NCBI GenBank assembly: GCA_902581045.1
Contig: CACHMU010000008.1
Location: 1 to 42,449, forward strand
Direction: 5' to 3'
Source: an uncultured Fidelibacterota bacterium
GTDB taxonomy: Bacteria > Fidelibacterota > Marinisomatia > Marinisomatales > TCS55
DNA: 42,449 bases
Shown: positions 31,206 through 41,071 of the stretch, one piece after another
Layout: every line of letters starts with the position of its first letter
Numbering within the stretch: the stretch's first letter is position 1
The notes under the pieces: model-generated
Told to the model about the DNA's origin: nothing
The model's input: the letters and a program-made list of their open reading frames with translations, nothing else
Database searches by the model: none
Translations under genes and position numbers: made by a program

Positions 31206-33236
31206 ATGAAAAATAATTTTACGTCAACTAATGGAAAAATATCTATTTTTATATGCATATTATTTTTTATCAATATAATTAATGCTGAAAATAATAATAT
31301 TCTACAACCAATGGATATTTTTGAGATGGAAGGTGTATCTGATCCTCAAATTTCTCCTGATGGCTCACAGATACTTTATGTTCGTTCTGGTAGTGATGTT
31401 ATGAAAGATAAGCGTTACTCAAATATATGGATTATTAATTTTAATGGTAGCGATAATCGTCCACTTACCAGTGGGCAGAATGGTAATAGTCAACCTCGCT
31501 GGTCTCCAAATGGTAAACAGATAATCTATGTATCTAGTTCTTCCGGTTCTAGCCAGATTCACAAGCGATGGATGGATACAGGTGAAACTACTATATTGAC
31601 AAATGTTCAAACTGGTCCTCATGGTGTAAGTTGGTCTCCAGATGGCAATCATATTGCATTTTTTGGAACCGTTACAAGAGGTGCAGATTTTAAAGTTGAT
31701 CTCCCTACTCCTCCTAAAGGAGCTGAGTGGGCAACTCCAGCTAAAGTAATTGATCGGTTGGTATATAGATTTGATGGCGTTGGGTATTTAAAGGGATATA
31801 AACATTTGTTCATCGTTCCATCAGAAGGAGGAACAGCTCGTCAATTAACTTCTGGTCGATTCAATTTTGCTTCTTATAGAGGTGGACAAACTGTATGGTC
31901 TAGTGATAGTGAACATATTTATGTATCAACTAATTTGAATGATGAATGGGAAGCTCAAGGTTATCGTCAAAGTGATATTTTCCAGATAAGTATTAAAGAT
32001 GGATCCATGGATAAACTTACTAATAGAGATGGCCCAGATGGAAATCCAAGACCATCACCTAATGGGAAATACTTAGCATATACCGGTTATGATAATAAGA
32101 TGATGGCAACTCAAATTTCTCATATCTATATAATGAATTTAAAAACAAAAAAAATTCAGGAGATCAAAACGAAACTTGACCGAGGGGTCTCTAATCTTAG
32201 TTGGTCTGGAGATAATAAAAATATCATATTTACTTACGCTACAGAAGGAAACACAAAGCTAGCAAAAACCACATTAAATGGTAAAACAGATATAATGGCA
32301 TCTAATCTTGGAAGAGGTTATTCTATAGCATCTAATGGAAAATTTGTTATGCTAACTACTCGCCCTGATATTCCTTCCGACCTGGCTGTGGGAAATATAA
32401 AAGGAGGACAACCCAAACTTATTACGACAGTTAATGCGGATTTATTTGCCAATAAAGAGCTTGGGAAAGTTGAGGAGATTTGGTACAAATCTTCACATGA
32501 CGGTTTGGATATACAAGGGTGGATTATGAAGCCACCAGGTTTTGATCCATCAAAAAAATATCCTTTAATTATTAAAATACATGGTGGCCCATTCTCCAAT
32601 TATGGCGATAGATTTTATTTAGAAAAACAAATGATGGCTGCTCATGGATATGTTGTCCTTTATACTAACCCACGTGGAAGTACGAGTTATGGTGAAAAGT
32701 TTGCTCAATTAATTCACCATGATTATCCTGGAGATGACTTTTATGATCTTAACTCTGGAGTGGATGCAGCAATAAAAAAAGGATATATTGATGAGAAGAA
32801 CCTATTTGTTACTGGTGGTAGTGGCGGTGGTGTTTTAACATGTTGGATGATTGGTCGTACAGATCGTTTCAAAGCTGCAGTCACTGTATATCCTGTAATT
32901 AATTGGTATAGTTTTGTTCTTTATTCTGATATTCCATGGACAGCAAACTATTGGTTTCCAGGTATGCCTTGGGATCATGTAGAAAAATATGAAAGCAAAA
33001 ATCTTTTGTCTGTAGTTAAGAACGTTAAAACTCCGACAATGGTATTAACTGGAGAGGCAGACTATCGTACACCTATGCCAGACTCTGAACAGTATTATGC
33101 AGCTTTACAGCTGTTAGGAGTTGAATCTGTTTTAGTACGTGTTCCAGATGAACCACATGGAATTTCTGTACGTCCCAGTCACCATATAAGTAAGCTACAG
33201 CATATAATGGGTTGGATGAATAAATACAATAATTAA
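31206..33236 (+). CDS. S9C-like acyl-aminoacyl/dipeptidyl peptidase, secreted
   Basis: A 676-residue S9-family serine peptidase with a signal peptide (about 1-27, ending NIINAE). The propeller contains recognisable PD40 blades: SDPQISPDGSQILYVRS, QPRWSPNGKQIIYVS and VSWSPDGNHIAFFG. The hydrolase domain has Ser539 (GGSGGG), Asp619 (GEADYRTP) and His651 (EPHGIS). It removes amino-terminal residues or dipeptides from oligopeptides, depending on subfamily. A perfect AGGAGG ribosome site lies before the ATG. It differs from the S9D enzyme two genes earlier, so the operon codes two complementary peptidases. Confidence 0.92.
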   Translation: MKNNFTSTNGKISIFICILFFINIINAENNNILQPMDIFEMEGVSDPQISPDGSQILYVRSGSDVMKDKRYSNIWIINFNGSDNRPLTSGQNGNSQPRWSPNGKQIIYVSSSSGSSQIHKRWMDTGETTILTNVQTGPHGVSWSPDGNHIAFFGTVTRGADFKVDLPTPPKGAEWATPAKVIDRLVYRFDGVGYLKGYKHLFIVPSEGGTARQLTSGRFNFASYRGGQTVWSSDSEHIYVSTNLNDEWEAQGYRQSDIFQISIKDGSMDKLTNRDGPDGNPRPSPNGKYLAYTGYDNKMMATQISHIYIMNLKTKKIQEIKTKLDRGVSNLSWSGDNKNIIFTYATEGNTKLAKTTLNGKTDIMASNLGRGYSIASNGKFVMLTTRPDIPSDLAVGNIKGGQPKLITTVNADLFANKELGKVEEIWYKSSHDGLDIQGWIMKPPGFDPSKKYPLIIKIHGGPFSNYGDRFYLEKQMMAAHGYVVLYTNPRGSTSYGEKFAQLIHHDYPGDDFYDLNSGVDAAIKKGYIDEKNLFVTGGSGGGVLTCWMIGRTDRFKAAVTVYPVINWYSFVLYSDIPWTANYWFPGMPWDHVEKYESKNLLSVVKNVKTPTMVLTGEADYRTPMPDSEQYYAALQLLGVESVLVRVPDEPHGISVRPSHHISKLQHIMGWMNKYNN

Positions 33237-33252: not shown

Positions 33253-34911
33253 ATGATAACTAAAAAGTTTTTAATTGTTTTTTCATTATTGATTACGATA
33301 GGCTGTGAAAAATATGATGTTGTAATAAGAAATGGTATGGTTTATGATGGAAATGGCTTACCACCTTTTCTTGCTGACGTAGCAATTAAAGATGATAAAA
33401 TTGTTTTGGTGAAAGAAAAAATCGCTGAAAAAGGAAGTAATGAAATTGATGCTAAAGGATTAGCAGTTGCTCCAGGATTTATTAATATGCTTAGTTGGGC
33501 GACAACATCACTAATTCAAGATGGCCGTTCATTAAGTGATATAAAACAAGGTGTTACATTAGAAGTTTATGGTGAAGGTGGCTCTATGGGTCCATTAAAT
33601 GATTCAATGAAAAAAGCAAATCAAGAAAACGCTAAAGGCTATACAATTGATTGGACAACACTTGGAGAATATTTAGAGTCGCTTGAAAGAAGAGGAGTTT
33701 CAACAAATATAGCTTCTTTTTTGGGCGCCACAACATTAAGGATTCATGAGATAGGATTCGAAGATAGAGCACCAACTGAAAATGAATTAAATAATATGCG
33801 TTCACTAGTTCGGCAAGCTATGGAAGAAGGTGCCTTAGGTATTGGTTCTTCATTGATTTATGCCCCGGCGTTTTATTCTACCACTGAAGAATTAATTGAG
33901 CTATGTAAAGTGGCCTCTGAATATGGAGGTATGTATATATCGCATATGAGAAGTGAAAGTAATCAATTGTTAGAAGCTTTAGATGAATTAATTACAATAG
34001 CTGAAAAAGCAAATATTCCTGCAGAAATTTATCACTTGAAAGCAGGTGGTGTAAAAAACCACTATAAAATGGATTTGGTGATAGAAAAGATTGCTGCTGC
34101 AAGAGAAAGAGGATTAGATATTACAGCTGATATGTATACTTATATTGCAGGCGCAACAGGATTGAATGCACACATGCCACCATGGGTTCAAGAAGGTGGC
34201 TATGATAATTGGGTAGAAAGATTAAAAGATCCAAAAATTCGAGCTAAGGTAAAAAAAGAAATGACCTCTGATGCAGCAGACTGGGAGAATCTAGGTTTTT
34301 TAGCAGGTCCTGATGGTGTCCTATTTGCAGGATTTCGTAATCCAGATTTACGAAAATATATTGGTATGACATTGGAAGAAGTAGCCGCGAAAACTGGAAA
34401 ACACTATGCAGATGTGGCGATGGATTTTGTGATTCAAGATGGTAGCCGAGTTGATGTTGTTTATTTTTTAATGTCGGAAGAAAATGTAAAAAAGCAAATT
34501 AAGTTACCTTATATGAGTTTTGGCTCTGATGCAGGATCGATAGCGCCTGAAGGTGATTTTTTAAAATATAACCCTCATCCAAGAGCCTATGGAAACTTTT
34601 CCCGTTTACTTGGAAAGTATGTTCGTGAAGAAAAAGTTATTTCATTAGAAGAAGCAATTTATAAATTGACTAGTTTATCAGCAAAAAAACTTAAAATAAA
34701 AAATAGAGGTTTATTAAAAGAGGGGTATTATGCGGATATAGTAATGTTCGATCCGAATACTATTTCTGATCATGCAACATTTGATAACCCCCATCAATTA
34801 GCTACTGGGATGCATCATGTTTTTGTTAATGGAATTCAGGTCTTAAAAAATGGTGAACATACTGGTGCCATGCCGGGTAGAGTTGTACGAGGACCTGGTT
34901 ATAAAAATTAA
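33253..34911 (+). CDS. N-acyl-D-amino-acid deacylase-like amidohydrolase, lipoprotein
   Basis: A 552-residue lipoprotein (lipobox ITIGC, Cys18) of the D-aminoacylase group of the amidohydrolase superfamily. Framework matches are DVVIRNGMVYDGNG, AVAPGFIN, HMRSES (His231), YHLKAGG (His261), MPPWVQEGG and the Asp in SFGSDAGS. Two metal-site elements are altered: the usual HxH after PGFID is M79-L-S81 (GFINMLSW), and the Cys-containing NCG segment is VYGEGGS. The enzyme may use one metal or a different chemistry. It overlaps dgcA by one base, placing it with D-glutamate genes. A ribosome site AGG lies upstream. Confidence 0.85.
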   Translation: MITKKFLIVFSLLITIGCEKYDVVIRNGMVYDGNGLPPFLADVAIKDDKIVLVKEKIAEKGSNEIDAKGLAVAPGFINMLSWATTSLIQDGRSLSDIKQGVTLEVYGEGGSMGPLNDSMKKANQENAKGYTIDWTTLGEYLESLERRGVSTNIASFLGATTLRIHEIGFEDRAPTENELNNMRSLVRQAMEEGALGIGSSLIYAPAFYSTTEELIELCKVASEYGGMYISHMRSESNQLLEALDELITIAEKANIPAEIYHLKAGGVKNHYKMDLVIEKIAAARERGLDITADMYTYIAGATGLNAHMPPWVQEGGYDNWVERLKDPKIRAKVKKEMTSDAADWENLGFLAGPDGVLFAGFRNPDLRKYIGMTLEEVAAKTGKHYADVAMDFVIQDGSRVDVVYFLMSEENVKKQIKLPYMSFGSDAGSIAPEGDFLKYNPHPRAYGNFSRLLGKYVREEKVISLEEAIYKLTSLSAKKLKIKNRGLLKEGYYADIVMFDPNTISDHATFDNPHQLATGMHHVFVNGIQVLKNGEHTGAMPGRVVRGPGYKN

Positions 34912-35993
34912 TGAAAATAAAAAGTGTTAAAATATGGTCAGAAGACCTTAAGCTATCTCGTCCATATACAATTTCTTACGAAACAATAGATTCTGTTGAA
35001 AATGTATTTGTTCATATTCAATTAGAAGATGGCACATGGGGAATAGGAGCTGGTTCGCCAGCAGAATTTGTGACTGGTGAGAATATTTTATCATGCGTAA
35101 ATGCATTAGAAAATCATTCTGAAGAACTCTTAATAGATAAAAATATTAATTCTATTGATGAAATATGTGAATCAATAAATAATAGATTATCTTCAACTCC
35201 AGCTGCACGTGCTGCTTTAGATATCGCACTTTTTGATGCACATAGTAAATTTCATAATATTTCTTTAATAGATTTTTTTGGTAAATGCCATAATGGTTTA
35301 TTTACATCTGTTACAATGGGAATAAAATCTATTAAAGAATCAGCAGATGAAGCTAAAGAGTATGTGTCAAATGGATTTCGTTTTTTAAAAATCAAAACAG
35401 GTAGTGATGTAGATCATGATATTGAATTAATACATAAAGTAAGGGAAACTGTTGGGAATTCAATTTCAATTAGAGTTGATGCTAATCAAGGCTATAGCAT
35501 TGAAGATCTCAACAAATTTGTTAATAAGACTAAAGAAAAGAATATTGAGCTAATTGAACAACCCTTTCCAAGAGATCATGATTCTAATATGCATAAAATA
35601 CCTGAATCAGTTAGTGACATTTGTGCGGCTGATGAGAGTCTTCACAATCCAGAAGATGCAATTAGATTAACTAACAATAAAAAATTCTTTGGAATCTTTA
35701 ATATTAAGTTGATGAAATGTGGAGGGCTATATCCAGCAAGAAAGATAGCTTATATTGCAAATCAAAATAATATTGATTTAATGTGGGGATGTATGGATGA
35801 AAGTATTGTTAGCATATCAGCTGCTCTACATATTGCATTATCAAGTACTAAAACAAAATATTTAGATTTAGATGGAAGTTTTGATTTAGCAAGGGATATT
35901 GTATCTGGTGGCTTTATGTTAAAAGAAGGGAAATTAATTCCTACGATGGAGCCAGGTCTTGGTGTTAATTATATTGATGGAATGAATATTTAG
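34911..35993 (+). CDS. dgcA: Enolase-superfamily N-acetyl-D-glutamate racemase DgcA-like (or dipeptide epimerase)
   Basis: A 360-residue enolase-superfamily protein of the muconate-lactonizing/dipeptide-epimerase subgroup. Catalytic and metal residues are visible: Lys160/Lys162 (KIKTG), Asp190 (DAN), Glu216 (EQP), Asp241 (ADES) and Lys266 (NIKLMK). The CMDES and DLDGSFDL motifs are typical of Ala-Glu epimerases. Known DgcA proteins racemise N-acetyl-D-glutamate and are encoded next to DgcN, a DUF1611 acetyltransferase, exactly as here. Alone, the family would equally allow L-Ala-D/L-Glu epimerase of murein recycling, so the symbol rests on context. It overlaps the deacylase by 1 bp and precedes dgcN by 1 bp. 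Confidence 0.85.
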   Translation: MKIKSVKIWSEDLKLSRPYTISYETIDSVENVFVHIQLEDGTWGIGAGSPAEFVTGENILSCVNALENHSEELLIDKNINSIDEICESINNRLSSTPAARAALDIALFDAHSKFHNISLIDFFGKCHNGLFTSVTMGIKSIKESADEAKEYVSNGFRFLKIKTGSDVDHDIELIHKVRETVGNSISIRVDANQGYSIEDLNKFVNKTKEKNIELIEQPFPRDHDSNMHKIPESVSDICAADESLHNPEDAIRLTNNKKFFGIFNIKLMKCGGLYPARKIAYIANQNNIDLMWGCMDESIVSISAALHIALSSTKTKYLDLDGSFDLARDIVSGGFMLKEGKLIPTMEPGLGVNYIDGMNI

Positions 35994-35994
35994 T

Positions 35995-37050
35995 ATGAAA
36001 AATGCAATTGTTTTTACGCATAATTTATTAGCAGAAAATTTTGCAAAGACAGCTCACGGTCTTCTCCGTGGAACAGAAAGATTTAAAATTCTAGCAGTTA
36101 TTGATTCACTTAATTATGGGAAAGATGCCGGTGAAGTATTAGATGGAAATAAAGTCGGTATTCCAGTTTATAAATCAATTCAACATTTTATTAAGAATTC
36201 AACTGAAAAAGCTGAAGTTTGTGTGGTTGGTGTTGCATTTCCTGGAGGCGTACTACCAGAAGATTGTAGAAAAGAATTAGCCGAAGCAATAAGGTATAAA
36301 TTATCCATTATTTCTGGACTGCATCATTATCTTAGTGAAGATAATGAGTTTAAAATATTAGCTGATAAAAATAATGTAAAATTAATTGATATAAGAAAAC
36401 CTAGGCCAGTTTCAGATTTACAATTTTGGACTGGTGACATTCTTAATGTCAAAACACCTATAGTTGCAGTCCTTGGAACGGATTGTGCTGTTGGGAAACG
36501 AACTACAGCACGTTTTGTTTTAGAAAACTGTCTTAAAAATAATATTCATGCTGAATTGATTTATACTGGTCAGACTGGATGGATGCAAGGATATAAACAT
36601 GGATTTATTTTTGATGCAACGCCAAATGATTTTGTTAGTGGAGAGCTTGAGAAGGCTATTTTAGAATGTGTAGAGCAATCTGCACCTGATCTAATTTTAT
36701 TAGAAGGTCAATCATCATTGCGGAATCCATCAGGTCCTGGAGGCTCAGAATTCATTTTATCTGGGAACGCGAAACATATTATTCTTGTTCATCCAATTGG
36801 TAGAGAATATTTTGTGGACCTTGAAGAGTTTGAATGTAAGATTCCAAATATAATTGAAGAGGTAAAATTAATTGAATCATTTGGTACTAAAGTTATTGGG
36901 ATAGGATTGAATGAAGAAAACACTTCATTTGATGAGCTGAAAAAATCAAAGAAACAAATTAATGAATTACTTGGGGTTCCGGTTTTTTTACCACTCAGTA
37001 GTGGTGTAGATGAAATTGTAAGATTTATTAAAGATAAAATAATTAAATGA
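35995..37050 (+). CDS. dgcN: DUF1611 P-loop protein, DgcN-like D-glutamate N-acetyltransferase
   Basis: A 351-residue DUF1611 protein. It has an N-terminal Rossmann-like domain (about 1-150, with VGVAFPGGVLPEDCRKEL as VAFPGGVLP) and a P-loop domain with GTDCAVGKRTT at 161-171 (Lys168), then TGQTGWMQGYKHGF, LLEGQSSLRNP and HPIGREYFVD. In marine bacteria DUF1611 proteins termed DgcN acetylate D-glutamate, and the DgcA partner racemises the product toward N-acetyl-L-glutamate. The adjacent dgcA-like gene gives this context, so the assignment is good but not experimental. It overlaps the transporter start by 4 bp (ATGA). Confidence 0.85.
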   Translation: MKNAIVFTHNLLAENFAKTAHGLLRGTERFKILAVIDSLNYGKDAGEVLDGNKVGIPVYKSIQHFIKNSTEKAEVCVVGVAFPGGVLPEDCRKELAEAIRYKLSIISGLHHYLSEDNEFKILADKNNVKLIDIRKPRPVSDLQFWTGDILNVKTPIVAVLGTDCAVGKRTTARFVLENCLKNNIHAELIYTGQTGWMQGYKHGFIFDATPNDFVSGELEKAILECVEQSAPDLILLEGQSSLRNPSGPGGSEFILSGNAKHIILVHPIGREYFVDLEEFECKIPNIIEEVKLIESFGTKVIGIGLNEENTSFDELKKSKKQINELLGVPVFLPLSSGVDEIVRFIKDKIIK

Positions 37051-38120
37051 GTTCTTCATTTTTTAATAAATATTTGCTACCTGGTTTTATTTTTCAAAGT
37101 TTAATAATCGGTGGAGGTTATGGGACAGGTCGTGAGTTAGTAGAATTTTTTCTTTCTGAAGGTCCCGTTTATGGATTGATAAATATGGGAATAGCTACTG
37201 TTATTTGGAGTGTTGTATTAGCTATTTGTTTTGAATTCTCTAGAATCGGAAAACATTATGAATATCGATCATTTCTAAAAGACTTATTAGGTAAGTTATG
37301 GATTGGCTATGAATATCTCTATTTAGTTGGGTTAGTTTTGGTCGTATCAGTTATGGGATCAGCTTCCGGTGAAATTTTCAGTGAAATGTTTCAAGTAAAA
37401 GAAATTGTTGGTGTAGTTATTATGATGCTGTTGGTTGGATTGATTGTTTTTTATGGCACAAGCTTAATCGAAAAGCTATTATCGATATGGTCAATAATTC
37501 TTTATGCTGCATTTATTATAATGTTTATCGCAGTATTTAATATGTTCAGCACAGAAATTTCATCGACTTTTTCTTTGCAGCAAAAGGGAAATAGTTTGGC
37601 AATAGGTGGAATCAAATATGCGGCATATAATATTGGCTTAGCTCCAGCAATCTTGTTTTGCGTTCGTCATCTTGAAACTCGAAAAGAAGCAATACTATCT
37701 GGTGTATTTGCAGGAGTAATTGGTATGGTACCAGCGCTAATAATGTTTTTGGCTATGTTAAGCCAGTACCCATTAATAATCTCTGAGAGTGTACCAGTAA
37801 ATCTTATTTTAGATAAAATTGGTTGGAATTATTTTAAAATTATCTTTCAAGTTGTCTTATTTGGTACCTTTATTGAAACTGGAGTAAGTTTGATACACGG
37901 ATTTAATGAGAGAATCCTTTCAGTAAACCAAAACTTAAAGGATCATTGGAGAGCCTTAATAGGAGTGGCTCTATTAATTGGTTCCATTTTTATTGCAAAT
38001 GCAGTTGGCCTGATTGGTTTGATTGCAAAAGGCTATGGAGCCATAACTTGGGGTTACTGGATTATTTTTGTTATTCCAATTCTAACAATAGGTGCAAAAA
38101 GAATTTTTAAAAATGGATGA
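37047..38120 (+). CDS. YkvI family membrane transporter
   Basis: A 357-residue polytopic protein with about ten membrane helices. It begins YLLPGFIFQSLIIGGGYGTGRELVEFFL (seen as IIGGGYGTGRELVEFF), the signature of YkvI-type proteins of the APC superfamily, with an unwound first helix suited to binding an amino acid or small solute. The second repeat starts near GGIKYAAYNIGLAPAILF. Its position within the D-glutamate genes (4 bp overlap with dgcN) suggests import of D-glutamate, an N-acyl amino acid or a related substrate. No transport data are in the sequence. Confidence 0.85.
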   Translation: MSSSFFNKYLLPGFIFQSLIIGGGYGTGRELVEFFLSEGPVYGLINMGIATVIWSVVLAICFEFSRIGKHYEYRSFLKDLLGKLWIGYEYLYLVGLVLVVSVMGSASGEIFSEMFQVKEIVGVVIMMLLVGLIVFYGTSLIEKLLSIWSIILYAAFIIMFIAVFNMFSTEISSTFSLQQKGNSLAIGGIKYAAYNIGLAPAILFCVRHLETRKEAILSGVFAGVIGMVPALIMFLAMLSQYPLIISESVPVNLILDKIGWNYFKIIFQVVLFGTFIETGVSLIHGFNERILSVNQNLKDHWRALIGVALLIGSIFIANAVGLIGLIAKGYGAITWGYWIIFVIPILTIGAKRIFKNG

Positions 38121-38631: not shown

Positions 38632-39120
38632 TTTATTAGTTTTCTTTTTTTCATATCTTCTATAAATAAATAAAATTATAATTCCAGCTAGATTTGGAAA
38701 CCAAACTTCAGGTCTTGACCAAGGAATCCCATCAAATGAAAAATCAGTAATTGGCCAAAGTAATTTTGTAGGAAAGTATGCTTTACTATGGAAGGGAAAA
38801 TCAAGTAGAATATGGAAAGGCCAAGCCCACATTGCAAATGCAATATTTTTATTAAATCTTCTAACTATTGCGATACAAAGAAATGCACTTACAAAACTAT
38901 GCGATATATCATAATTGATGAATACCCACCATGGAATAGAATTTAATGGTGGAGGTCCGCCCCCAATCACATGCGAATAATCACCAGAAATCAATCTATA
39001 AATTATTAGAATACCAAAAGAAAAAAGGTCGGGCATTGCGCCAAAAAAAAATGAAGGCCATGCAAGCCCTCTATACCCAAATAGTCCTCTTCCCCATAGA
39101 GCATGACTCAAAGTATCCAT
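38623..39120 (-). CDS. YdjM-like (DUF457) membrane-bound hydrolase homolog
   Basis: A 165-residue membrane protein with about four hydrophobic segments. The conserved His/Asp pattern of YdjM/DUF457 proteins is present: His6 (MDTLSHALWG), Asp31 (GAMPDLF), His74 (DISHSF), His103/Asp107 (FHILLDFPFH) and His111. These residues suggest a metal site at the membrane surface. Family members are predicted metal-dependent hydrolases with unknown substrate. Its ATG overlaps the stop of the acetoacetyl-CoA synthetase frame (TAATG), so the two form one transcript. It overlaps the convergent cysteine dioxygenase by 9 bp. Confidence 0.75.
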   Translation of the reverse strand: MDTLSHALWGRGLFGYRGLAWPSFFFGAMPDLFSFGILIIYRLISGDYSHVIGGGPPPLNSIPWWVFINYDISHSFVSAFLCIAIVRRFNKNIAFAMWAWPFHILLDFPFHSKAYFPTKLLWPITDFSFDGIPWSRPEVWFPNLAGIIILFIYRRYEKKKTNKLT

Positions 39121-41071
39121 TACGAAATATCGGGGATGTTTTCATAAAGTTCTAATGATTCAGGATTTGATAATGCATCTCTATTTTTTACTTCGTCACC
39201 TTCAATAATTCTTTTAACTGCAATTTCAACTTTTTTACCATTAATTGTATATGGAATATCTTTTGTTTCTAAGGTAATACTGGGTACGTGTCTTGGTGAG
39301 CAATTAGTTCTAATTGAGGTATTAATTTTATTGATAAGATCATGATTGATTGAATCAGGTTCAATTAATTTTAAAAATAAAATAATTCTTTCATCCCCAT
39401 CCCATGCTTGACCGATTACAAGACTATCTTCTACTTCTTCAAAACTTTCAACTATGCGATAAATTTCTGCAGTACCAATTCTTACACCACCAGGGTTTAA
39501 TGTAGCATCGCTCCTTCCAAAAATTTGAACACCACCATGTTCATTGATTAATATAAAATCACCATGATTCCAAATCCCCGGAAATTTTTTAAAATAAGCA
39601 TTATCATATTTTTCATTATCTTGATCATTCCAGAAATAAATAGGCATAGATGGAAATGGTTTTGTGCACACTAATTCGCCTTTATGATTTAATAATGATT
39701 TTCCATCGTTATCAAAAGATTTAACGGCCATACCTAATCCTCTACATTGTATTTCCCCTCTATGAACAGGTAGTATTGGATTTCCCCCCGCAAAACAAGA
39801 TATGATATCTGTACCACCTGAAATTGATGAGAGCTGAACATCGCGTTTTATTTGTTTATAAACATAATCATAACTTTCCTCAATCAAAGGTGATCCCGTT
39901 GATAATATTATTTTCATTGATTCCAAAGAATGTGAAGATATTGGTGATACATTTTCTAACTTACACGCATCAATAAATTTTGCGCTTGTACCGAAATGTG
40001 TAATTTGAAACTCATCAACCATATCCCACATTGAATTCGGGTCGGGATAGAATGGATTACCATCATAAAGAACAATTGTTGACCCGATTGCTAGATTACT
40101 TAAAAGCCAATTCCACATCATCCAGCCACAAGTAGTAAAATAAAAAACAGTATCATCAATAGATATGTTACTATGAAGTCTTAACTCCTTTAGGTGCTGA
40201 ATTAATGTTCCGCCTGCGCCATGGACAATAGATTTTGGAAGTCCAGTTGTGCCGCTTGAATACATTATATAAAGCGGATGGTCAAATGGAAGTTGCTCAA
40301 AAATAAGTTGAGATGGATTCCCATCAATAAATTCATCCCAGAGTACTCCTTTATTTATTTTTTGACTTATCAAAACTATTATCTACATATGGAGTAATGA
40401 TTACTTTTTCTAGTGATGGTAGTTCCTTAACAATTGCATTTATTTTTTCTATAAGATCATATTCTTTACCATTGTAATAATAAGCATTCGTTACAAATAA
40501 TATTTTCGGATCTATCTGTTTAAATCTATCAAGGACGCCTTGGATTCCAAAGTCTGGTGAAGATGAAGACCATATAGCTCCAATAGAAGAAGTCGCCAGC
40601 ATTGCAATTACAGTTTCAGGAATATTTGGCATAAACCCGGCAATTCGATCTCCAGGTTTTATTCCGTTACTTCGAAGTGAAGAAGAAATTCCTTCAACTG
40701 AATCATAAAGTTCATTATATGAAACAGTTTTAACTAAATTATTTTCATTCTTAAATAGTATAGCAGATTTATTTGTTCTTATTCTTAATAGATTTTCGGC
40801 ATAATTCATTTTTACACCTGAAAACCATTTTGCGCCTTGCATTTTTTTGTCATTATCTATAATAGAAGAATAATTTTTTGAGAATTCAATTGACATAAAC
40901 CCCCAAATTGCTTTCCAAAAATCTGCAATATTATTGATTGACCAATCATATAGATCTGTATAGTCCTTAAGATCTATATCAAACCGTGAATTGACTTGGA
41001 GACGAAAAGCCTCCATTTGAGAGTTTTTTTATTTGATTTTTACTTGGTTTCCAAAGGATTGAATTCATCAT
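39120..41071 (-). pseudogene. Acetoacetyl-CoA synthetase, interrupted by two frameshifts
   Basis: The sequence encodes an ANL-superfamily acetoacetyl-CoA synthetase (acetoacetate + CoA + ATP). It falls in three frames: ATG 41071 (MMNSILWKPSKNQIK), then the main N-terminal part to 40351 (MKMNYAENLL type block, WSSSSPDFG), then the C-terminal part from about 40373 (YIMYSSGTTGLPK as the ATP-binding P-loop, GGTDIISCF, GRSDATLNPGGVRIG). Breaks are at T7 41024-41030 and T6 40358-40363 (A runs on the coding strand). Removing one A from each gives a continuous ~649-residue protein, normal for the family. It is either indel errors or a recent pseudogene. All other motifs are intact. Confidence 0.9.

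Follow-up and report, generated by a model that had tools for sequence, protein, structure and literature searches.

Does a D-aminoacylase-like protein that has exchanged three classic metal-ligand positions still hold a metal and still hydrolyse amides? The question is raised by an open reading frame at 33253..34911 (forward strand) of the window, i.e. of the whole stretch of 42,449 nucleotides from an uncultured Fidelibacterota bacterium analysed here, which encodes a variant amidohydrolase lipoprotein of 552 aa.

Fold and export of the variant amidohydrolase

The protein matches PF07969 (Amidohydro_3) above the gathering score, which places it in the amidohydrolase superfamily. Its best solved relative is the D-aminoacylase of Alcaligenes faecalis (1m7j, E 1e-73), to which it aligns from end to end, the further nearest ones being a Klebsiella D-acylase, the N-acyl-D-glutamate deacylase 3gip and OngB. 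The AF2 model (pLDDT 93.3, pTM 0.91) shows the TIM-barrel amidohydrolase fold; its top Foldseek match is again 1m7j (E 1.1e-47), and the top structural matches are the same proteins as the sequence relatives, with TM scores of 0.77-0.80 by query length and 0.88-0.92 by target length. On the strength of this model the fold can confidently be assigned as that of D-aminoacylase. As to NagA (subtype IV / CE9), the 25 best NCBIfam matches listed include no profile of it, and the best Foldseek matches listed likewise lack a NagA entry; the sequence does not place the protein in that subtype.

The N-terminus, MITKKFLIVFSLLITIGC, is a signal peptide with a lipobox cysteine, Cys18 (residues 1-18, 33253..33306, forward strand), characteristic of an exported lipoprotein. 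Of 80 relatives, 62 show the lipobox pattern and 78 have a hydrophobic run at the N-terminus; signal peptides are general across the variant family. The same genome also holds a canonical paralog (DMHTH, GNCG), and the roles of the two amidohydrolases should therefore differ.

Active-site changes and conserved residues

Residues 78-82 (33484..33498, forward strand, as are all features below unless stated; alignments and codons checked) read NMLSW in place of the DxHxH of D-aminoacylase, by which the alpha-site ligands are lost. The loop after beta strand 2, G107-E108-G-G-S-M-G113 (33571..33591), is one residue shorter than the canonical GNCGxx, so that G-E-G-G (107-110) stands against G-N-C-G; owing to the deletion, the pairing of Glu108 with Cys96 or with Asn95 is ambiguous by one position. 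These two changes had been pointed out in an earlier note on this DNA, along with the retention of His231, His261 and the Asp of GSDA. The alignments bear out both observations and add two further replacements, that of the Asp of DxHxH by Asn78 and that of the histidine of GHxT by Ala159 (GAxT).

The remainder of the site is intact. It comprises the beta-metal ligands His231 (SHMR, 33943..33945; His220 of 1m7j, His222 of OngB) and His261 (YHLK; His250), the latter sharing the stretch 34033..34041 with Lys263 (Lys252), which binds the substrate carboxylate; the substrate-binding Tyr295 (34135..34137; Tyr283 of 1m7j, Tyr285 of OngB); the catalytic base Asp426 (GSDAG, 34528..34530; Asp366); and Arg444 of the HPR motif (34582..34584; Arg377 of 1m7j, Arg379 of OngB), also a substrate carboxylate group. 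With the subtype V enzymes 1m7j and 3gip the protein thus shares the fold, the full-length alignment, the beta-site histidines, the catalytic Asp and the Lys/Tyr/Arg carboxylate clamp, while differing from them in NMLSW, GE-G and GAxT and in being an exported lipoprotein. Of the features that define subtype V, the His/His pair of the beta site and the catalytic Asp are present, whereas the Cys ligand after beta strand 2 (GE-GG for GNCG) and the HxH after beta strand 1 (Leu80, Trp82) are absent. As two defining features are missing, classification under subtype V is not warranted, but in its mode of action the protein most likely still resembles those enzymes.

Distribution and constraint

Relatives were found by the peptide patterns NHYKMD and MPPWVQE, which lie outside the metal motif, and the best 80 of at least 555 encoded relatives were kept. 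In the window protein and these 80 loci, N78, L80, S81, W82, E108, H231, H261, K263, Y295, D426 and R444 are invariant (81/81), and the reading frames of all 80 are free of stops. Record titles of these best 80 name Neomarinimicrobiota, Bacteroidota (many of them cultured isolates), Ignavibacteria, Rhodothermales, Acidobacteria, Verrucomicrobia, Gemmatimonadota, Planctomycetota, Caldithrix and gammaproteobacteria. By a profile threshold, with the motifs read for a subset, the clade occurs in 26 of 245 Neomarinimicrobiota genomes and in 42 of 296 genomes of the phylum of Eudoraea (about one in seven of those sampled); it is found in about 4 of 249 genomes of the phylum of NOR5-3. About 30 positions set the clade apart, being invariant within it and different outside (N78, L80, W82, D90, E108, A159/T160, Y260, W320 and W344-E345 among them), and some of these line the active site. 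Comparison with a homolog of 85% identity gives a dN/dS of about 0.06 (0.088/1.5, dS being near saturation), which, together with the end-to-end alignment to D-aminoacylase, agrees with the view of the earlier note that the rest of the protein is under constraint. The alignment of homologs, which that note had called for, rules out a change unique to one sequence, as 80 further loci share it.

The amidohydrolase variant is thus real, widespread and constrained. In the open-licence literature searched we found neither a description of the motif variant, nor an assayed member of the clade, nor a close homolog with the same motif shown to be a canonical two-metal deacylase; the branch, large and widespread, is apparently unstudied.

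Coupling of the loop residue to the HxH motif

The state of the beta2 loop and of HxH was compared in 90 D-aminoacylase-like homologs drawn from all similarity levels. A loop Cys occurs in 24 of them and a loop Asp in 25, in every case with HxH; a Glu combined with the one-residue deletion occurs in the other large group, of 40 proteins, and never with HxH. The former HxH of these 40 reads LxW in 31, LxQ in 4, QxH in 3 and LxH in 2. In the one remaining protein (L141, G031:C11:45693-47204) HxH is kept and the loop, TTILATLHSGDQPWP, has neither Cys, Asp nor Glu, its unclear condition making a fourth state.

In a tree built without the metal-motif and loop columns, the Glu proteins form a single clade (SH-aLRT 99): the Glu had one origin, and HxH was lost once. 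Since this is one evolutionary event, a Fisher value for the link between Glu and HxH loss is not independent support. The weight lies instead in the pattern inside the Glu clade, where the positions of the former HxH vary, while the beta site and the Glu never do. Cys and Asp appear to have been swapped several times on the same tree, which indicates that a carboxylate is tolerated at the place of the thiolate ligand.

The two LxH proteins (L127, L137) have, besides the His at position 82, a shorter GED loop. This pairing suggests that position 82 touches the loop, and the two changes are possibly a compensating pair. As for the Asp-loop cousins (GPDG, GQDG; L034:1157-2737, L055:890-2473 on the reverse strand, L070:6341-7969, L161 and L157), all have HxH intact and look likewise unannotated as a metal-site variant. 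At least the first two resemble the Glu clade in having a carboxylate for the Cys ligand but differ from it in their intact HxH and in the lack of the deletion.

Proposed metal site and mechanism

Enzymes of the D-aminoacylase type are functionally one-metal, with a beta site of Cys/His/His (PMC12017989). The best point of comparison is PpOngB (GlcNAc1A deacetylase, PDB 9kb1), which functions with one beta-site zinc bound by Cys97, His222 and His252, uses Asp368 as the base and has Lys254, Tyr285 and Arg379 among its ligand-holding groups; its H68A and H70A mutants are nevertheless dead, i.e. HxH is still needed despite the single beta metal (PMC12017989). OngB belongs to the same family as the clade, in which its Lys254, Tyr285, Asp368 and Arg379 are all kept; in contrast to the clade, where both are replaced, it retains Cys97 and the required HxH. 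The NagA proteins of Escherichia coli and Vibrio cholerae, whose family ligands are Glu/His/His, have QxN for HxH, and the former is mononuclear; in mycobacterial NagA, AXA at the place of HxH is inactive and QXN active. The Glu ligand of NagA sits on a different barrel strand. NagA is a distant relative, and its likeness to the clade, a single-metal Glu/His/His site with degenerate HxH, concerns the logic of the site only and would be convergent.

We consider it rather probable that the variant is a lipid-anchored, exported amidohydrolase which has the D-aminoacylase fold, binds a single beta-site metal through Glu108 (for Cys96), His231 and His261, and hydrolyses D-amino-acid amides in the periplasm. 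By analogy with OngB and NagA, there is probably one metal, with Glu108 as a ligand and the alpha site closed. The Cys ligand was probably replaced rather than lost, because Glu108 is invariant in the clade and many HxH-bearing cousins have an Asp at this position. The canonical D-aminoacylases being already functionally one-metal, the loss of HxH alone need not mean the loss of a required metal. The interpretation of the earlier note is thus partly upheld: its subfamily with altered metal content is borne out by one widespread and constrained clade, with the two corrections that the missing HxH does not in itself entail the loss of a required metal (PMC12017989) and that Glu108 probably substitutes for the Cys. 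The new reaction that the note gave as an alternative may or may not apply.

As to the course of the reaction, we infer from the conserved residues that Asp426 would act on the metal-bound water as a general base, and that Lys263, Tyr295 and Arg444 would clamp the carboxylate of the substrate, as they do in D-aminoacylase and OngB; Leu80 and Trp82, in the place of the former histidines, would close the alpha site. The substrate is most likely an amide of a D-amino acid that is either N-acylated or linked through its N-terminus (an N-acyl-D-amino acid or an L-X-D-Y dipeptide) in the periplasm, an activity to which the carboxylate-binding residues and the gene context point. In the operon of the window, the permease would then import the products, and the dipeptide epimerase and the DUF1611/DgcN-like protein described below would convert them. 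Since OngB needs its HxH and the AXA form of mycobacterial NagA is inactive, the clade must compensate for the loss of this motif, and the clade-specific residues N78, S81, D90 and A159/T160 are candidates for this role. Judging from OngB, the loss of both histidines could amount to a loss of hydrolysis unless Glu108, Asn78 or Ser81 compensate.

This brings up the possibility of a pseudoenzyme, i.e. of a non-hydrolytic lipoprotein whose barrel binds a ligand or acts as a scaffold, in the manner of the collapsin response mediator proteins (CRMPs), which are dihydropyrimidinase-like, have no metal site and occur among the distant Foldseek matches. The loss of three classic ligands and of the GHxT histidine and the inactivity of the single-alanine HxH mutants of OngB favour it, but it would leave unexplained why His231, His261, Lys263, Tyr295, Asp426 and Arg444, needless without catalysis, are fully invariant over many phyla, and why the Cys was swapped for a Glu to which the loss of HxH is strictly tied, instead of the site drifting. 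We therefore regard this explanation as unlikely, and the enzyme is probably not dead. Equally improbable, in our opinion, is an enzyme that is active but catalyses another reaction (hydrolysis of another bond, isomerisation or elimination), with a new substrate pocket that would be made up of the Leu/Ser/Trp wall and the closed alpha site. The clade-fixed positions, including those in the wall of the active site, the canonical paralog in the same genome and the varied gene neighbours would be consistent with it, but the protein shares its base Asp and the carboxylate-binding Lys/Tyr/Arg with the deacylases, and OngB demonstrates that the substrate can shift with amide hydrolysis retained (PMC12017989). 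Finally, an ordinary D-aminoacylase made odd by assembly error, frameshift or private mutation is refuted, in spite of a probable frameshift elsewhere on the contig, by the same motif, without in-frame stops, in 80 independent genome records, cultured isolates included.

Returning to the single-metal amidohydrolase, we put forward, more tentatively, that the Glu clade represents a new metal-centre subtype (one metal, bound by two His and by a Glu after beta strand 2; HxH absent), which arose once by replacement of Cys with a carboxylate and performs an undescribed step of periplasmic D-amino-acid-peptide salvage in many phyla. The binding mode with Glu is probably one not described for the D-aminoacylase family. 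Scattered "D-aminoacylase" annotations could thereby be turned into a testable rule, that Cys is swapped for Asp or Glu and the second metal site discarded only with Glu, which is relevant to the way in which a metal is lost from two-metal hydrolases. This also marks a large number of exported enzymes as misannotated, and their gene neighbours point to the turnover of D-amino acids and peptidoglycan peptides in marine and soil bacteria.

Gene context

Upstream in the operon lies a gene for an exported S9 / DPP5-like peptidase (31206..33236, profile search); a PLP enzyme also precedes the amidohydrolase, together with the S9 peptidase. The start of the next gene (34911..35993) overlaps the amidohydrolase stop and encodes a dipeptide epimerase of the enolase superfamily (MR_MLE), close to the dipeptide epimerase 3rit (E 6e-98) and with KxK and DLDG kept; its best NCBIfam match, L-Ala-D/L-Glu epimerase, is below the cut-off. 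It is followed by a gene for a DUF1611 / DgcN-like protein (35995..37050; PF07755, E 2.7e-51) and one for a membrane protein (37047..38120) that is conserved in the operon, has 8 predicted TM-like segments by hydropathy and gives no Pfam or NCBIfam match; it is a putative amino-acid permease, perhaps YkvI-like. The operon ends with a gene for a cysteine-dioxygenase-like protein (PF05995, 38092-38631, forward strand) that overlaps the membrane protein gene. The N-acetyl-D-glutamate pathway proper (DgcN/DgcA) was considered for this operon and is weakened: both genes are far under the curated cut-offs (121 bits against 480 for DgcN, 165 against 400 for DgcA), and the structure nearest to the epimerase is that of a dipeptide epimerase.

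The gene order of the window is common to six genomes of the family (G000, G002, G104, G106, G107 and G108). In five others (G015, G024, G103, G109 and G110), which lack the epimerase, the amidohydrolase is accompanied by a different DUF1611 protein (27-30% identical) and by the same membrane protein. The operon thus has two forms (L101-L106 and L110-L113), a single different DUF1611 gene standing in the second for the epimerase and DUF1611 genes of the first, between the same flanks. The amidohydrolase also has a DUF1611 neighbour in L067 and in the Saprospiraceae loci L038 and L059, such neighbours recurring in Saprospiraceae and other Bacteroidota. In seven flavobacterial loci a PhzF-like gene lies directly downstream, and the opposite strand carries a VanX-type D-Ala-D-Ala dipeptidase in the vicinity. 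S12 beta-lactamase-fold proteins account for 12 of 279 neighbours within two genes on either side and for 1 of 595 beyond (Fisher p 9e-6, related loci being mixed in this count). In the majority of the Bacteroidota loci the gene is isolated or has unrelated neighbours. This context is circumstantial and suggests periplasmic hydrolysis or turnover of D-amino-acid amides or peptides.

Further along the window, on the reverse strand, an acetyl-CoA synthetase-like gene (39120-41016) is split into two ORFs that overlap at 40351-40373, whereas its relatives are single ORFs of 648-651 aa; the split is probably a frameshift, either real or from assembly.
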